Of a DNA stretch of 64,000 nucleotides, positions 7,204-16,194 are shown in pieces. Position numbers and translations under genes: made by a program. A model generated the notes under the pieces. That model saw only the letters and a program-made list of their open reading frames with translations. It searched no databases and was not told where the DNA came from. How positions within the stretch are numbered: the first letter of the stretch is position 1; the number at the start of each line of letters is the position of its first letter. The stretch is from Thiorhodococcus drewsii AZ1 (lineage in GTDB: Bacteria; Pseudomonadota; Gammaproteobacteria; Chromatiales; Chromatiaceae), in contig NZ_AFWT01000001.1 in the NCBI RefSeq assembly GCF_000224065.1, positions 235,503-299,502 of the forward strand. Direction: 5' to 3'.

Positions 7204-7662
7204 TTATTTGTAGGCGCCCACACCGCAGAAGAAGCCGCCGTCGTTGGTCATGACGTAACTGGTCTTTTCGCGAATCTCATCCGAGCCCGGATAGGGCCAC
7301 TTGTAGTCGACCCAGCCTTCGCCGGAGGTTTTTGCGACCTCGATCATGTTCTTGAACAGGGTATCGCCGTATTTGTTGAAATCCAGCAGGTTCTTGCCGA
7401 CCAGTTCGGGTTTCATGGCGTGCGAGAGCATGACGCCGTCCATATCCATGCAGAAGACGTAGAGATCCTTCTCCTTGAAGCCACCATCGTCCGCCGCGAA
7501 GGCGGCGAACGCCTTGTCCTGTCCCATCGTGTTGACGGCGGTTTGTGCCTTCTGTGACATGGCCTTGGCTTCGTCGGGGGTTGCCATCTCTCCGGCCAGG
7601 GCGAGGTTGAAGGTGCCGCACAGGAGCGCGCCGGCCGCAATAGCGGTCAATCTTGAGATCAT
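7204..7662 (-). CDS. Exported single-Cache-domain protein
   Basis: A 152-residue protein with a clear Sec signal peptide (about residues 1-23, ending LALA-GE). The mature part is a small sensor-like Cache domain: AVNTMGQDKAFAAFAADDG, DLYVFCMDMDGVMLSHA, LVGKNLLDF, then GEGWVDYKWPYPGSDEIREKTSYV. Free-standing Cache proteins of this kind sit in the periplasm and may bind small organic ligands. No transmembrane signalling partner is adjacent. It ends just after a terminator shared with the convergent XRE gene. Confidence 0.8.
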   Translation of the reverse strand: MISRLTAIAAGALLCGTFNLALAGEMATPDEAKAMSQKAQTAVNTMGQDKAFAAFAADDGGFKEKDLYVFCMDMDGVMLSHAMKPELVGKNLLDFNKYGDTLFKNMIEVAKTSGEGWVDYKWPYPGSDEIREKTSYVMTNDGGFFCGVGAYK

Positions 7663-7864: not shown

Positions 7865-8908
7865 TCAGCAGATACGCGGCAGCTGCTCGCCTGCGAGCCA
7901 GTCGACGATTCGGCTTCCGCCGAATCCTGTCTCCATTTGCACGAAGTGCAGATCGTCCTCGACAACCGCGCCGATGATCGCGGACTCAGAGCCCAGGGGG
8001 TGAGCGCGCATCGTTGCCAACAGATGTTCGGCGCGGTCGGCGGGACAGATGGCGATCAGCTTGCCTTCGTTGGCGACGTAAAGCGGGTCGAGTCCCAGCA
8101 GCTCGCAGGCCGCAGACACCTCCGCCTTGATCGGAATGCACTCCTCGCGGATCTGCATGCCCACGCCGGACTGGAACGCCAGTTCGTTCAAGGTCGTTGC
8201 CAGTCCACCTCGGGTCGGGTCGCGCAGACAGTGGATTTCGGGCACGCTGGCGACCATGGCTGCGACCAGATCGTGCAGGGCGGCCGTGTCGGAGTGGATT
8301 TCGGTCGCAAATCCCAGATTCTCACGTTTCGAGAGGATGGAAACGCCGTGGTCGCCGATGCTGCCGCTGACCAGGATGGCGTCGCCTGGGCGTGCCAGGT
8401 CGCCGGATATCTGGATCCCGTCTGGTACCACGCCAATGCCTGTGGTGGTGATGAAGACGCCATCGCCCTTGCCGCGCTCGACGACCTTGGTGTCACCCGT
8501 GACGATCGGTACGCCGGCGGCCTTCGCCGCCTCGCCCATGCTCTGGACGATGCGGACCAGATCGTCCAGGGGGAACCCTTCTTCGATGATAAAGCCGGCG
8601 GACAGATAGAGCGGTCGGGCGCCGGCCATGGCGACGTCGTTGATGGTTCCGTGCACGGACAGACAGCCGATGTCGCCGCCGGGAAAGAACAGGGGAGAGA
8701 TGACATGGCCGTCGGTGCTCATGACCAGTCTTCCGGCGGGCGGAGAGAACAGCGCCTGATCGTTGCCCTGGGCGAGTAGGCCGTTGTCGAGCGCGGCCTG
8801 GAAGACCTCTGCGATGAGTTGCGCTGTGGCTCGGCCGCCGGCGCCGTGACTCATGTCCACGGTGCCGCGTTTCAGGTCCAGTCGGAGAGGGAAGCGTCGG
8901 TCTGTCAT
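7865..8908 (-). CDS. hypE: Hydrogenase maturation protein HypE (carbamoyl dehydratase)
   Basis: HypE takes a carbamoyl group from HypF on its C-terminal cysteine and dehydrates it with ATP to a thiocyanate, the source of the cyanide ligands of [NiFe] hydrogenases. The C-terminus is PRIC, the required terminal cysteine. VDMSHGAGGRATAQLI and the PurM-like ATP-binding signatures (LYLSAGFIIEEG, RDPTRGGLATTLNEL) are present. I chose the ATG at 8908, giving 347 residues; an in-frame ATG at 8977 would add 23 unconserved residues. No other hyp or hydrogenase gene is adjacent, so the rest of the pathway must be elsewhere. Confidence 0.95.
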   Translation of the reverse strand: MTDRRFPLRLDLKRGTVDMSHGAGGRATAQLIAEVFQAALDNGLLAQGNDQALFSPPAGRLVMSTDGHVISPLFFPGGDIGCLSVHGTINDVAMAGARPLYLSAGFIIEEGFPLDDLVRIVQSMGEAAKAAGVPIVTGDTKVVERGKGDGVFITTTGIGVVPDGIQISGDLARPGDAILVSGSIGDHGVSILSKRENLGFATEIHSDTAALHDLVAAMVASVPEIHCLRDPTRGGLATTLNELAFQSGVGMQIREECIPIKAEVSAACELLGLDPLYVANEGKLIAICPADRAEHLLATMRAHPLGSESAIIGAVVEDDLHFVQMETGFGGSRIVDWLAGEQLPRIC

Positions 8909-9184
8909 GGGTGGAAATGTGTCGCCGTGGTCTGGGTGAAGGAGGCTCGCCAGTTCGGTCGTTCTGATCGAGCGCATGCGTTCGCCGTGGGGCGATGGTT
9001 CGGTTCAGGGGCCGCGTCGGGGTTTATGGTTTGAGCGATGGCCGTTCAAGGCGAGCGCTTCCTGTCGTCGAACGCGACGATCGCAATCTGCCAGCCGCTT
9101 CGCAACCGCGCAAGTCGAGTCCGGGAATCGGGGGCGCCGCTTGCTGGCATGATGCCTTTGGCGCGTTGGGGTCAAGACCTTCGG

Positions 9185-10138
9185 TCAGCCTTTCGGCTCG
9201 GCGATCACGCGGTTGCGTCCTTCGGATTTGGCGCGGTAGAGCAGTTGGTCGGCGCGCTGGATCAGGGATTCCGCCGTGTCGTCGGGCACGAGTTCCGTTA
9301 CGCCGATGCTGGTCGAAATCCTGCATTCCTCTCCGCAGGGTCTCAGTGTGCCGATCTCTTTGCGCAGACGTTCTGCGGCGTCGGTCGCGGCGAGGAGCGG
9401 GGCGTCCTGCATGTAGAGAATGAATTCCTCGCCGCCGAAACGCCCGGGCAGGTCCGCGCTGCGAACCTTGGCGACCAGCAGTGCGGCGACCGCGATCAGA
9501 ACTGCGTCGCCGCCGGTATGTCCGAACCGGTCGTTGATGCTCTTGAAGTGATCGAGATCCATCATCAGCAGCGACAGTTGGCGGTTGCGCGTCTGCGCGT
9601 GATCGATGCTCTGACGTAGCCGTTCCATGAAATAACGCCGATTGGCGATTCCGGTCAGCGGATCCGTGCGCGCCAGTTTTTCTGCGCGCGCGTTGGCCAT
9701 GAGCAGATCCTGATTGGTCTTGCGCAGATCCCGCACCAGTCTCGACATCTCGATCGCGAGGTGTCCCATCCGCTCGATGATGTCGCTGTCCTCGGCGTTG
9801 GCGAGTTCGCCGATGAGCAGCGCCCCGTCTCCAAGCTGGTAGGCATGGAACAGAAAGGTTTCGCCCGATCTGCGGTCGATCAGGACGTGCGTGATCGCCG
9901 TGCGTTGAGCGATACCGGCCTCGATATCCGGCGATTCACCGCTCGTGCTGGTGAAGAAGCTTGCGACCGTTTCACCGTCGGGCCGGTTGAAGCCGGCGAA
10001 ACGTGAACGAAAGGCGATATTGGATTCTCGGATTCGGCCCTCCGCGTCCAGCTCGATGACGAGCAGGCGACCGGAGCTCATCACGTGGCGCTTCAGCGCC
10101 CACAAAAGATCCTTCTCGTGAGCATGGTCGAGATTCAT
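9185..10138 (-). CDS. Diguanylate cyclase with PAS-like sensor region
   Basis: A 317-residue soluble protein that should make cyclic di-GMP from GTP. The N-terminal part (about 1-115) looks PAS-like (LLVIELDAEGRIRESNIAFR). A coiled-coil helix around 125-150 precedes the GGDEF domain (about 155-317), which has the active site GGEEF and an RSAD product-inhibition I-site five residues before it, so it is likely active and feedback-controlled. It has no membrane segment. Its ATG overlaps the stop of the upstream B12-binding gene (ATGA), a strong sign of translational coupling and joint function. Confidence 0.92.
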   Translation of the reverse strand: MNLDHAHEKDLLWALKRHVMSSGRLLVIELDAEGRIRESNIAFRSRFAGFNRPDGETVASFFTSTSGESPDIEAGIAQRTAITHVLIDRRSGETFLFHAYQLGDGALLIGELANAEDSDIIERMGHLAIEMSRLVRDLRKTNQDLLMANARAEKLARTDPLTGIANRRYFMERLRQSIDHAQTRNRQLSLLMMDLDHFKSINDRFGHTGGDAVLIAVAALLVAKVRSADLPGRFGGEEFILYMQDAPLLAATDAAERLRKEIGTLRPCGEECRISTSIGVTELVPDDTAESLIQRADQLLYRAKSEGRNRVIAEPKG

Positions 10139-11274
10139 GCGGCGGAGGGCAGGGTGCGAGCCCAGTCGACAGCCGACTCGCAGTCCGGGAGTGAAAGGTC
10201 GGCGCCGAGCCATTCGGCCAGTGACGGTGCCGTGAGCAAGGCGCGGCCCCCGACCAGGATGTGGGTGTTCGAGTCCGCCGGGAGCGACGCGCGCAGAGTC
10301 TCGATGACCTTGCGTGCGATCGGAACGTTGCTGGGCAGGCTGATCGACAGGGCAACGAAGCGCGGGGAGACGCGCCGAGCCGCCTCGGTGATGCCCTCCA
10401 GCGTGGTGTCGCCCGGGAGCAGGGTGACGTTCCAGCCATCCAATTCGAGACAGGCCGAGACCATCCAAGCGCCCAGTTCATGGAACTCGTTGGTGACGGG
10501 GGCAACGATCGCCTCGCCTCGGTGGGCCGCCGGGAAGGGCTGGGCGTAATAGAGGGTCGATAGCATCAGATAGGCTGTGGATGTTGCCTGGTGCTCCATG
10601 GCAATGGAGACGTCGCCGTTCTCCCAGCGCTCGCCGATCTCGAACATTGCGGGGTAGACGATGTATTGGAGCAATTTGGGAAAAGGCAAGCCGTTGTCCA
10701 GCAGACGATGGCAGTGCTCCAGTGCGTTGAGGTAATCGCCCGCGATCAATGATTCGAGAATCGCGGCATAGGCCTCGTGCAATTCCTGCGGAATTCCTGG
10801 TCCTTCGATGCGATAGGCCTCGGCGGCATGGATGATGTCTTGATGCGCACCGAGTATCCAGTCGTAGAGGTCGAGCAGGCAATGGGCCTCAAGCGCGGGC
10901 AATTGCGCCTGAATCGCTTCCTTCCAGGCCAGGTTCCGGGCGAGGAAATATTCGTAGGGAACGCCTTGCCCATGGTAGGCGTGGTAGGACCAGGACAGAA
11001 CCTTGGCCAGGAGTTTGAAATCGTTCGTGCGAAGGATTCCCGCAATGAGCGCGGCGTGATTGCGGTGGTTGATTTCGAGCAGACGGAAGGGATTGCCGTT
11101 GAGAAAAGCGGCGATCTTCGGGTGGTGTGCCAGCCGGCTCGAAACCTGAGAGGCCAGTGCATCGGCGCGTTCGGCGTAAAGTTGCGCGGCGACCGGTGGA
11201 CACGGGATCAGGGCCGCGATTCTGTTGGTGAGCGCGTTGGTCCGATCGGTGTTGATCGAGTTTTGAGTGGGCAT
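10135..11274 (-). CDS. Cobalamin-binding regulator with MetH-like cap domain
   Basis: A 379-residue protein. The N-terminal ~160 residues are helical and not recognised. Residues about 165-245 are a MetH-like helical cap containing W217 and E227-H228, that is Wx9EH, the motif of light-sensing B12 proteins such as CarH. Residues about 250-375 are a B12-binding Rossmann domain with E263-x-H265-x-x-G268, a variant of DxHxxG in which His supplies the lower cobalt ligand. No enzyme domain is attached. It is followed with a 4-base overlap by a diguanylate cyclase, suggesting it senses B12 or light and controls c-di-GMP. That function is inferred. Confidence 0.85.
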   Translation of the reverse strand: MPTQNSINTDRTNALTNRIAALIPCPPVAAQLYAERADALASQVSSRLAHHPKIAAFLNGNPFRLLEINHRNHAALIAGILRTNDFKLLAKVLSWSYHAYHGQGVPYEYFLARNLAWKEAIQAQLPALEAHCLLDLYDWILGAHQDIIHAAEAYRIEGPGIPQELHEAYAAILESLIAGDYLNALEHCHRLLDNGLPFPKLLQYIVYPAMFEIGERWENGDVSIAMEHQATSTAYLMLSTLYYAQPFPAAHRGEAIVAPVTNEFHELGAWMVSACLELDGWNVTLLPGDTTLEGITEAARRVSPRFVALSISLPSNVPIARKVIETLRASLPADSNTHILVGGRALLTAPSLAEWLGADLSLPDCESAVDWARTLPSAA

Positions 11275-14076: not shown

Positions 14077-16194
14077 ATGACACTGACACAGGTTACCAAG
14101 GACATGAAACCGCCAGAGCAAGCGCAACCAGAGACGGCCATCCTCTTTCTGGGCATCGATTCCCAGCTCCTGCAGGAGCTGAAGCCCATGCTCGAGCCCA
14201 AGGGGCTGAGCCTGACGGACGTCGACGATCCAGAGGGTCTAGCCGCCCTGCGCGCCCGGATATCGCCGAGCGTTCTCGTCGTCGATCTTCCGTTCATCGG
14301 CGGGACCGAGAGACTTCCCGGCCTGATCTCCGGGTTGGTTTCGGAAGAAGGAGCCTGCCCGGTCGTGCTCTGTCTCTCCCGCCGCGAGCGTGGCGACGAC
14401 ACCTTGGAGCGCCGTTTGGCGGCCTTGCGCGCCGGGGCCGACAGTTATCTGCCGCTGCCGGCTTCCTCGCGTCGACTGGCCGACCGCATCGTGCGCCTGA
14501 GTGGTGTCTTCGACAGCCGCCGATATCGGATCTTGGTTGTCGAGCCTCAAGCCGATCAAGCGAAGAATATCGCGATCACCATCGCTGGCGCGGGCATGGA
14601 CGTGCTGGTAGTTGAGGATCCCATGAAGACCCTGGATCGGCTCCAGGCATTCCGGCCCAATCTGATTCTCATGAGTCAGGACATGCCAGCTGTCTCCGGG
14701 GCTGAACTGGCGGCCATCATCCGCGATCATGATATGTTTTTTGGGTTGCCTATCCTCTTTTTCTCCGCTGAGGACAATCTGTCGGGACAGTTGGATGCGC
14801 TTCGGGCGGGGGGCGATGGCTTCATTCCCAAACCGGTTCGTCGTCACCAACTGATCGCTGCGATCGAGCAGCGCGTGCGCGGATCTCGCTGGTTCCACGA
14901 TCGGCGCACCCTAGAGAACCGGCGCGAAAGCACCAAGGGGTTTCTGCCGCGCGATGTCTTTTTGCGCTATCTGGAGGTCTTCGTCGACTCGGGGAAGGTC
15001 GCGCGGGATGGTGTCGGGCTGGTGGTTTTGGGGCTCGATCAGCATGCGCGGGCCTTGGAGCGCCTGGGTATCGGCGGCTTCGAGCGCCTGCTGCGGCAGA
15101 TGGAGGTGATGATCGCCCAGTGCATGGGACCCGATGAGGTTGCGGCTCGGCTGGACGAGCACCGTTACGGCGTACTCGCCTCGCGTCAGCAGCTCTCGGA
15201 GATCGAGTCCTTCGCCTCGGAGCTTTGCGCGCGCCTGTCCGAGGGGCTGGGGTTTCGCGGTGGCTCGAAGCTGACGGGTGTGACCGTCAGTATCGGCGTG
15301 GGGTTGCCGACGCCACCGCTGGAGGATGCGGGGACCTTACTCGCACGTGCCGAACAGGCGCTGAAGTGGGCCGATGAGGCCGGTGGCAACCAGTTTCGGT
15401 TGTGGTCGTCCACGGGCGGGCAGGACGAGGTGCCTGGAGGCTTCGGGGTGATTCGGCGATTGGTCAATGCCGCGCTCAATCACGATGGTCTCCTGCTGCT
15501 GCATCAACCCTTGGTTCCGGTCGCCAAACAGGGCGAAGAATTCTACGAGGCCCAGTTACGGCTCAAGACCCTGGATGGTGAGCTGGTGACGCCCACGGGG
15601 TTTCTCGCCTCGGCCGAGCGCGGTGGTCTGATGGTGCGGATCGATCGTTGGGTGCTGGCTCAGGCGCTGGAGGTGATGAACCAGCATCGCGCCAGTCATC
15701 CCCGTATGCGCTTGCTGGTTCATCAGTCGGTCGAGACGCTGACCGCTCCAGACTGGTTTCCCTGGTTCCGCGAGCAGATCGTGCAGCGCAATCTGGTGCA
15801 GCTCTATCCAGTGCTTCAGTTCCAACTCGCCGATGTACGCCAGAATCGCTTGGAGGCCAAGTCGCTCATGGATCGACTGGGAACCTATGGCATCCATGCC
15901 TGTGTTGCCAACGTCATGGGCTCGCGGGAGGATCTCGCGCTCCTGCCGGGGCTTGGGGTCAAGTACGCCAAGCTCTCGATGCAAGTGCTCGCGCGGGGCG
16001 ATCAATCCGAGCTGATGGGGCTCATTCAGGGGCTGCAAGAGCGCGGGGTGATCGTCATTGTGGCCGGTATCGACGATAAGGAGAGCCTGGAGCGTGTCTG
16101 GACCTGTCGCCCGGACTTCATCCAGGGTAGCTTCATTCAGTTGCCGGGGGCGGATCTGAATTTCGACTTCAGGCGAGCGACCGCCGAGGTTTGA
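14077..16194 (+). CDS. FimX-like protein: two receiver-like domains plus degenerate GGDEF and EAL domains
   Basis: A 705-residue cytoplasmic protein. Residues about 20-140 and 148-270 are receiver-like; the first keeps an Asp in LVVDLPF, the second has Ser in its place (LILMSQDMP) but keeps the Lys (FIPKPV). The GGDEF region (about 290-440) lacks GGDEF (LDEHRYGVL), and the EAL region (about 455-700) has EAQ in YEAQLRL and lacks catalytic acidic residues. This pattern matches FimX-type c-di-GMP receptors that control type IV pili. It is likely a binding protein, not an enzyme. The start ATG at 14077 lacks a strong Shine-Dalgarno; ATG 14104 is an alternative. Confidence 0.8.
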   Translation: MTLTQVTKDMKPPEQAQPETAILFLGIDSQLLQELKPMLEPKGLSLTDVDDPEGLAALRARISPSVLVVDLPFIGGTERLPGLISGLVSEEGACPVVLCLSRRERGDDTLERRLAALRAGADSYLPLPASSRRLADRIVRLSGVFDSRRYRILVVEPQADQAKNIAITIAGAGMDVLVVEDPMKTLDRLQAFRPNLILMSQDMPAVSGAELAAIIRDHDMFFGLPILFFSAEDNLSGQLDALRAGGDGFIPKPVRRHQLIAAIEQRVRGSRWFHDRRTLENRRESTKGFLPRDVFLRYLEVFVDSGKVARDGVGLVVLGLDQHARALERLGIGGFERLLRQMEVMIAQCMGPDEVAARLDEHRYGVLASRQQLSEIESFASELCARLSEGLGFRGGSKLTGVTVSIGVGLPTPPLEDAGTLLARAEQALKWADEAGGNQFRLWSSTGGQDEVPGGFGVIRRLVNAALNHDGLLLLHQPLVPVAKQGEEFYEAQLRLKTLDGELVTPTGFLASAERGGLMVRIDRWVLAQALEVMNQHRASHPRMRLLVHQSVETLTAPDWFPWFREQIVQRNLVQLYPVLQFQLADVRQNRLEAKSLMDRLGTYGIHACVANVMGSREDLALLPGLGVKYAKLSMQVLARGDQSELMGLIQGLQERGVIVIVAGIDDKESLERVWTCRPDFIQGSFIQLPGADLNFDFRRATAEV

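Follow-up and report, generated by a model that had tools for sequence, protein, structure and literature searches.

Overlapping genes for a putative divergent photocobilin-type B12 sensor and a predicted diguanylate cyclase in purple sulfur bacteria

Within a 64,000-nucleotide stretch of the Thiorhodococcus drewsii AZ1 genome (contig NZ_AFWT01000001.1, positions 235,503 to 299,502; the window from here on), two overlapping genes encode a 379-residue protein with the domains of a cobalamin (B12) photosensor and a 317-residue predicted diguanylate cyclase with intact motifs. Our comparisons suggest that together they form a split photocobilin-cyclase, in which a light-responsive B12 protein would control the adjoining enzyme, and we favour this reading with modest confidence. 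Such a system would likely respond to green light by way of its corrinoid. Photocobilins, a cyclase fusion included, are already published, and the split two-gene form is a variant of these.

The two genes as a conserved unit

The B12 sensor and cyclase genes are a real, conserved pair that forms one unit, as is supported by a survey of 194 genomes of the same family, evenly drawn from a larger group. At an E-value of 1e-20 the sensor found matches in 24 of these genomes, and in 16 they are close, intact homologues (36-100% identity), each with the cyclase directly downstream on the same strand. The other eight comprise one genome with an interrupted B12 gene (G073), one with remnants (G138) and six with distant homologues. 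The reciprocal search with cyclase residues 1-152 (E 1e-5) returned 17 of the 194 genomes, namely those 16 and G073, and in all 17 the N-terminal domain of the cyclase is present as a single copy that adjoins the B12 gene. A preliminary description of this DNA had proposed one sensory unit from the overlap of the two genes and had named conservation of the pair as its check; both the overlap, in which the cyclase ATG shares letters with the TGA of the B12 gene (junction GCATGAAT), and the conservation are borne out. At 10 of the 16 family loci the partner begins with a start codon placed four bases ahead of where the sensor stop codon ends; five others offer different in-frame ATGs that overlap it (-1 to -23), and at the last (L013) the partner starts 39 bases after the stop. 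In G073 (L025/L033) the B12 gene is broken near residue 237 by an insertion of about 2 kb, with the cyclase behind it intact; from its open reading frames (ORFs) we take this insertion to carry resolvase-like and TnpB-like genes. In G138 (L026) a remnant of the B12 gene is followed by a 95-residue GGDEF-like remnant, and both genes of the pair look decayed.

Beyond this survey, a scan of named genome records gave eight loci, with the pair in seven (L001-L007: Imhoffiella, an uncultured Thiocystis, two Thiocapsa, two Allochromatium (L004 and L006) and a metagenome-assembled genome (MAG) of Thiohalocapsa), some of which are probably identical to genomes of the 194; in the eighth, from an Elusimicrobia MAG (L008), the partner lacks GGDEF. 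The B12 gene also occurs in Allochromatium vinosum. Against a large protein database, in a search that could show only proteins 0.55 to 1.75 times the length of the cyclase, its N-terminal domain found 26 proteins, all precomputed as GGDEF, and 12 of these come from contigs equal in length to one with a hit to the B12 protein. The close pair also goes with phototrophy, because reaction-centre proteins (PF00124), found in 77 of the 194 genomes, occur in 17/17 of those with the cyclase (Fisher p 4.6e-8) and, by genus, in 10/10 versus 20/61, both statistics ignoring descent.

Architecture of the sensor

The C-terminal part of the sensor is matched by the Pfam families B12-binding_2 (residues 171-241, 8.9e-11) and B12-binding (255-359, 1.3e-15), which, with its PDB relatives, identify a cap and Rossmann domain of the CarH/photocobilin type. 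When the full-length model was compared with the PDB, a comparison that covers residues 163-379 only, the best solved relatives were photocobilins, CtMerR and CarH, in agreement with the kinship to B12 photoreceptors first proposed for this protein. Trp217, Glu227, His228, Glu263, His265 and Gly268 all lie where the preliminary description had placed them and are invariant in the close set of 30 (the window protein and its 29 closest database relatives), which with 7 intermediate and 11 distant members makes up our alignment of 48. They supply the W-x-EH (W217, E227-H228) and E/DxH (E263-x-H265) motifs of photocobilins. CarH identity itself was rejected, as Pfam finds no DNA-binding helix-turn-helix match in the protein and the NCBIfam CarH score is 49.3 bits against a cut-off of 400; a corrinoid methyl-transfer protein (MtbC/MtgC) was likewise rejected (NCBIfam 41.9 versus 370 and 29.4 versus 350).

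The N-terminal ~160 residues had initially been described as matching nothing, and Pfam indeed returns no match for residues 1-160 of the window protein; this view is superseded by profile comparison, which points to a divergent photoglobin-type globin domain at residues ~23-145. With a divergent photoglobin as its N-terminus, the sensor is predicted to have the architecture of a photocobilin, B12 plus a bilin-type globin. The N-terminus of the close clade aligns with the domain that opens the distant B12 proteins (E 6e-11 over 110 columns), and that distant-clade domain aligns in turn with the C-terminal globin of SasPcob-type proteins (E 1.2e-16), with control comparisons at E 0.09-0.56; smaller initial globin profiles, later enlarged by the distant loci, had given E 2.7e-4 and 1.7e-3. 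The window N-terminus by itself matches the distant-clade model at 2.7e-5, versus 3 for the best shuffled sequence. One SasPcob-type protein matches both SasPcob (2.5e-55) and allophycocyanins (3.3e-6), and the phycobilisome family PF00502 matches 6/48 aligned members (best 7e-4). The AlphaFold2 model of the sensor (mean predicted local distance difference test score (pLDDT) 92.7) is helical in its N-terminal part; since the structural comparison takes in residues 163-379, the globin assignment rests on the profiles. In an ungapped alignment, with SasPcob residue numbers converted to chain numbering through an offset of 6 derived from His108, Trp95 (W in 48/48 members) is equivalent to SasPcob Trp296 and Asn69 to Asp270, so that the bilin-contacting Asp is absent from the window protein, and Leu66 occupies the place of a CxxD Cys. 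Beyond the close set the Asp270 position is Asn in 7/7 intermediate members and D 10, E 1 in the 11 distant ones.

The cyclase and its coupling to the sensor

Residues 156-310 of the cyclase match the Pfam GGDEF domain at 7.8e-44 (149.7 bits, cut-off 23.8), and, as originally claimed, both GGEEF (235-239) and the inhibitory site (I-site) RSAD (226-229), five residues upstream, are intact. The structure model (mean pLDDT 86.2, predicted template modelling score 0.57) has a PAS-like N-terminal domain, a long helix at 115-157 and the GGDEF domain. Among its closest structures, the only chains spanning nearly the whole model were the PAS-GGDEF-EAL proteins 5xgd, 5xgb and 5xge and the LOV-cyclase 8c05, at root-mean-square deviations of 20-26 that we take to reflect domain arrangement; PAS_4 matches are weak (6/27 cyclase members, best 0.0056). 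All 27 close cyclases have the strict motif R[DE]LxxxNxxL in this helix, as do 11 of the family's 16 intact-pair cyclases. Among those 16, the five remotest members (L020-L024) keep R[DE]LxxxN without the final L, and in the G073 cyclase (L033) an H replaces the R. As a control, for the strict form only, the motif was found in 1 of 22 other GGDEF proteins of the same genome (30 of 70 GGDEF places were taken, and 8 dropped that had no frame matching the search pattern). Across the fetched loci it occurs in 28 of 669 frames of at least 150 residues, and all 28 are partners of B12 genes, several coming from one genome twice and the background of 669 being poor in other coils. Together with the partners of distant B12 genes described next, these findings suggest that the PAS-coil may be what receives the signal of the B12 sensor, and we infer that sensor and cyclase meet through the PAS-like domain and coil.

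More distant sensors point the same way in part. From 15 distant globin-B12 loci we dropped one at a contig edge (L027), and in 8 of the remaining 14 (L008, L028, L029, L030, L032, L039, L040 and L041) a PAS-coil, cyclase or kinase partner starts -68 to +18 bases relative to the end of the stop codon; the other six (L042-L045, L056, L058) have no such partner. Against the model of the cyclase N-terminal domain, the GGDEF-less Elusimicrobia partner scored 1.2e-12, a kinase partner 1.8e-4 and a 163-residue partner without output 0.009, and the pooled N-terminal domains of the L030, L031, L032 and L035 partners gave an alignment to it of 135 columns (E 2.2e-6). An hhalign comparison with the L029, L039 and L040 adaptors was not significant (E 0.02, in the coil only). 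By Pfam the outputs of these partners are histidine kinase parts (L028, L034, L039, L040, L041), GGDEF (L029, L032), GAF/PAS (L031) or none (L008, L030), and the strict coil motif is present in 10 of 12 compared proteins (the window cyclase and 11 chosen partners), L028 and L041 being without it. At L035 a stand-alone ORF of 118 residues, which we read from its motif as globin-type, is flanked by a B12 gene without globin and a kinase-like gene. Elsewhere (L051, L053, L054, L055) the stop of a small B12 protein overlaps the start of an ORF of ~350 residues, which we presume from its reading to resemble methyltransferase/uroporphyrinogen decarboxylase-type proteins; the overlap layout recurs there in what is probably corrinoid methyl transfer.

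Of the known systems, AbDPcob (PDB 8j2y) is the closest that has been tested and the one by analogy with which the steps of our proposed mechanism are drawn: adenosylcobalamin lowers its dark cyclase turnover and green light raises turnover more than ten-fold, with no rise for methyl-, hydroxo- or cyanocobalamin (PMC10979010). Like our pair it couples a B12 photosensor and globin to a diguanylate cyclase, has the W-x-EH and E/DxH motifs, and carries a globin in which the Asp270 position is replaced (His in AbDPcob, to which its weak biliverdin binding is ascribed (PMC10979010), Asn69 here). However, it is a single polypeptide with the cyclase first and the globin last, whereas here two genes are used with the globin first, and the window enzyme bears an extra PAS-like domain and coil. 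SasPcob (PDB 8j2w, 8j2x) is also a stand-alone B12-globin protein, and photocobilins have been reported to change an isolated cyclase in trans, SasPcob among them (PMC10979010); its globin, though, is C-terminal and keeps Asp270, and the published main text gives it no cognate overlapping enzyme gene. CarH and CtMerR (PDB 5c8d, 8jbs) share the B12 domain, the Trp, the EH pair and the lower His, but they have a DNA-binding domain, and the window protein has no GxxxP loop. BBAG-2 clusters (PMC10151467) similarly associate a bilin-type globin with a B12-binding protein, but the two are encoded separately there, alongside heme oxygenase/PcyA relatives; in our pair they are fused and go with a cyclase.

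In darkness, the cap (W217, E227, H228) and the Rossmann domain would enclose an adenosyl-type cobalamin, with His265 below the cobalt, and this cofactor would keep the sensor dimeric; the dimer would grip the PAS-like domain and coil so that the cyclase is held off. Green light would cleave the Co-C bond and shift the cap helix bearing Glu227 and His228, after which the coil would be released or re-registered, allowing two GGDEF domains to meet and make cyclic di-GMP (c-di-GMP). Position 218, equivalent to the CarH His132 that serves the bis-His light state, is Glu in 30/30 close members, and photocobilins likewise have no His132 equivalent (PMC11796333). A CarH-like bis-His state would therefore be impossible, and a water-ligated light state is expected, as in SasPcob. 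Through Trp95 the globin probably supports the corrin edge, and, given Asn69 in place of Asp270, its binding of biliverdin may be weak or absent. That light activates rather than represses the cyclase is, by this analogy, a possibility we hold at somewhat under even strength. With similar reserve we propose a plug-in light-sensing platform, in which globin-B12 sensors encoded by overlapping genes might dock on a common PAS-like/coil adaptor (R[DE]LxxxN) combined, in two or more bacterial phyla, with exchangeable outputs (diguanylate cyclase, histidine kinase, GAF/PAS chain or none), and whose purple-bacterial branch, having lost the bilin Asp and the GxxxP loop, would be a B12-only photoreceptor with corrinoid chemistry unlike that of CarH.

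Table 1. Features of the gene pair, in window coordinates
Feature	Position	Strand	Basis
Photoglobin-B12 sensor gene, 379 residues, divergent photocobilin (predicted)	10135..11274	-	ORF, residues, Pfam, PDB relatives
Diguanylate cyclase gene, 317 residues (predicted)	9185..10138	-	ORF, Pfam, residues
ATGA overlap of stop and start codons	10135..10138	-	Junction sequence; start codon equally placed in 10/16 family loci
N-terminal photoglobin-type globin domain (predicted), residues ~23-145; conserved N69, R71, H73, W95	10840..11208	-	Profile comparison, conservation, helical AlphaFold2 model
B12-binding_2 four-helix cap, residues 171-241; G214-x-x-W217, E227-H228	10552..10764	-	Pfam, residues, conservation
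B12-binding Rossmann domain, residues 255-359; E263-x-H265-x-x-G268; His265 predicted lower axial ligand	10198..10512	-	Pfam, residues, conservation
Cyclase PAS-like N-terminal domain, residues ~10-112	9803..10111	-	Structure model, profile and reciprocal searches; related adaptors at other B12 genes
Cyclase signalling coil, residues 115-157, with RDLRKTNQDL	9668..9796	-	Structure model; motif comparison and control
GGDEF domain, residues 156-310; GGEEF 9422-9436, I-site RSAD 9452-9463	9209..9673	-	Pfam, residues

Downstream of the cyclase lies hypE (7865-8977, -), and the gene upstream of the sensor is, as we read its ORF, presumably thiC-like; both neighbours are retained in Imhoffiella (L001) and thiC alone in the Thiocystis MAG (L002). 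The reverse strand also encodes, at 7204-7662, an apparently secreted single-Cache-domain protein of 152 residues in which Pfam shows no signalling domain. About 3 kb from the pair, a response-regulator protein (14077-16194, +) combines an EAL domain with a divergent GGDEF (34 bits) and is a further c-di-GMP protein nearby. Because the 5.5-Mb genome (G000) holds 70 GGDEF places, the effect of the pair's cyclase may be local, and the surface attachment once suggested as its outcome is unsupported.

Weighing a light response against the alternatives

Several observations weigh against a split photocobilin-cyclase. Of the 77 genomes with reaction-centre genes, 60 are without the pair. The search for heme oxygenase (PF01126) drew a blank in 3 of the 17 genomes that hold the pair, the nearest relative (G049) among them, and among phototrophs this enzyme is not significantly enriched with the pair (14/17 versus 37/60, p 0.15); a bilin link through heme oxygenase is thus unsupported, and biliverdin may not be required. 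The Asp270 position is Asn in 27 of the 30 close members (E 2, K 1). When compared directly with the SasPcob-type globin the close clade gives a weak match (E 1.4e-3, probability 18%), and the window N-terminus matches the pooled distant and SasPcob-type model at only 0.009. The published light signature of cobalamin photoreceptors, as given in PMC11796333, is GxxW, EH, GxxH and GxxxP. GxxW (G214-x-x-W217) and EH (E227-H228) are present in 30/30 close members. In place of GxxH, however, the window protein has N262-x-x-H265 (at position 262 the close set has N in 25 members, D in 3 and G in 2), and in place of GxxxP it has P287-x-x-x-T291, with P291 in 7/30. Because only two of four signature elements and no His132 equivalent are found, the preliminary description's statement that the protein carries the same hallmark motifs as CarH holds in part. 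In CtMerR the signature Pro of the neighbouring monomer packs against the adenosyl group (PMC11796333), and the adenosyl pocket or dimer seam of the window sensor therefore probably differs. The supply of adenosylcobalamin is a further difficulty, as the late assembly gene CobS is present in 17/17 pair genomes, yet the adenosyltransferase CobA/CobO (PF02572) was found in 4/17 and the PduO type (PF01923) in 0/17, leaving 13/17 with neither family searched; this gap could reflect an unrecognised corrinoid adenosyltransferase, draft gaps or a non-adenosyl cofactor. Finally, the effect of SasPcob on cyclase has been shown to change sign with the bilin (PMC10979010), which makes the direction of control in our pair uncertain.

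Some of these points would suit a sensor of corrinoid status, in which available or loaded cobalamin, not light, sets cyclase activity. Cobalamin is needed for B12-dependent bacteriochlorophyll synthesis and methyl transfer, and the incomplete light signature and the 13 genomes in which both adenosyltransferase families are missing are consistent with this idea, as is the setting of CobS in the window's own genome (G000:C120:12000-28000, L064), where it stands beside ORFs that we take to be CobC-, CobT- and BtuB-like. The invariance in 30/30 of W217, E227 and H228, the residues that contact the adenosyl group in CarH and photocobilins, and the company of reaction-centre genes in 17/17 argue otherwise, and we consider it unlikely. 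A redox or oxygen sensor of the AerR/PpaA/AppA-SCHIC type, in which a B12- or heme-bound protein would report redox state and release the cyclase, is quite improbable; PF21966 (AppA SCHIC) has no match in the window protein at E 10 and matches 13/48 relatives (best 2.1e-5), and the AppA type (heme SCHIC) was rejected on these scores. That the B12 protein is an MtbC-like methyl-transfer corrinoid protein, the cyclase obeying its own PAS-like domain and the overlap being operon packing, is very improbable, for although some databases name homologues 'methanogenic corrinoid protein MtbC1' and the cyclase does own such a domain, the NCBIfam score falls far below its cut-off, the immediate neighbours scanned (HypE and, as we presume from its ORF, ThiC) include no methyltransferase, the two genes co-occur reciprocally within the family, and some distant sensors adjoin related PAS-coil partners too.

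We found the pair unreported in open-access titles and abstract openings on photocobilins, B12-binding cyclases and c-di-GMP in purple sulfur bacteria. Photoglobins go back to Schneider 2022, whose remarks on gene neighbourhoods may overlap with this pair. The words 'operon' and 'Chromatiaceae' are absent from the main texts of PMC10979010 and PMC11796333, and the genome-neighbourhood analysis of 506 photocobilins in the former may include such pairs. In the accessible part of its main text, a 2022 census of c-di-GMP sensing contains neither 'cobalamin' nor 'B12'; it lists there, for Allochromatium vinosum, the BLUF blue-light protein BldP, which acts on c-di-GMP, so light control of c-di-GMP per se is not new in that organism. 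The split form makes signal passing testable, in that one can ask which surface of a B12 photosensor contacts which part of the enzyme, and the residues that nature has altered, the bilin Asp and two positions of the signature, provide a ready-made test of what B12 photoreceptors require. If the split photocobilin-cyclase is real, purple sulfur bacteria would own a natural two-protein counterpart of the light-activated photocobilin-cyclase fusion, and the B12 cofactor would be linked to c-di-GMP in phototrophs.
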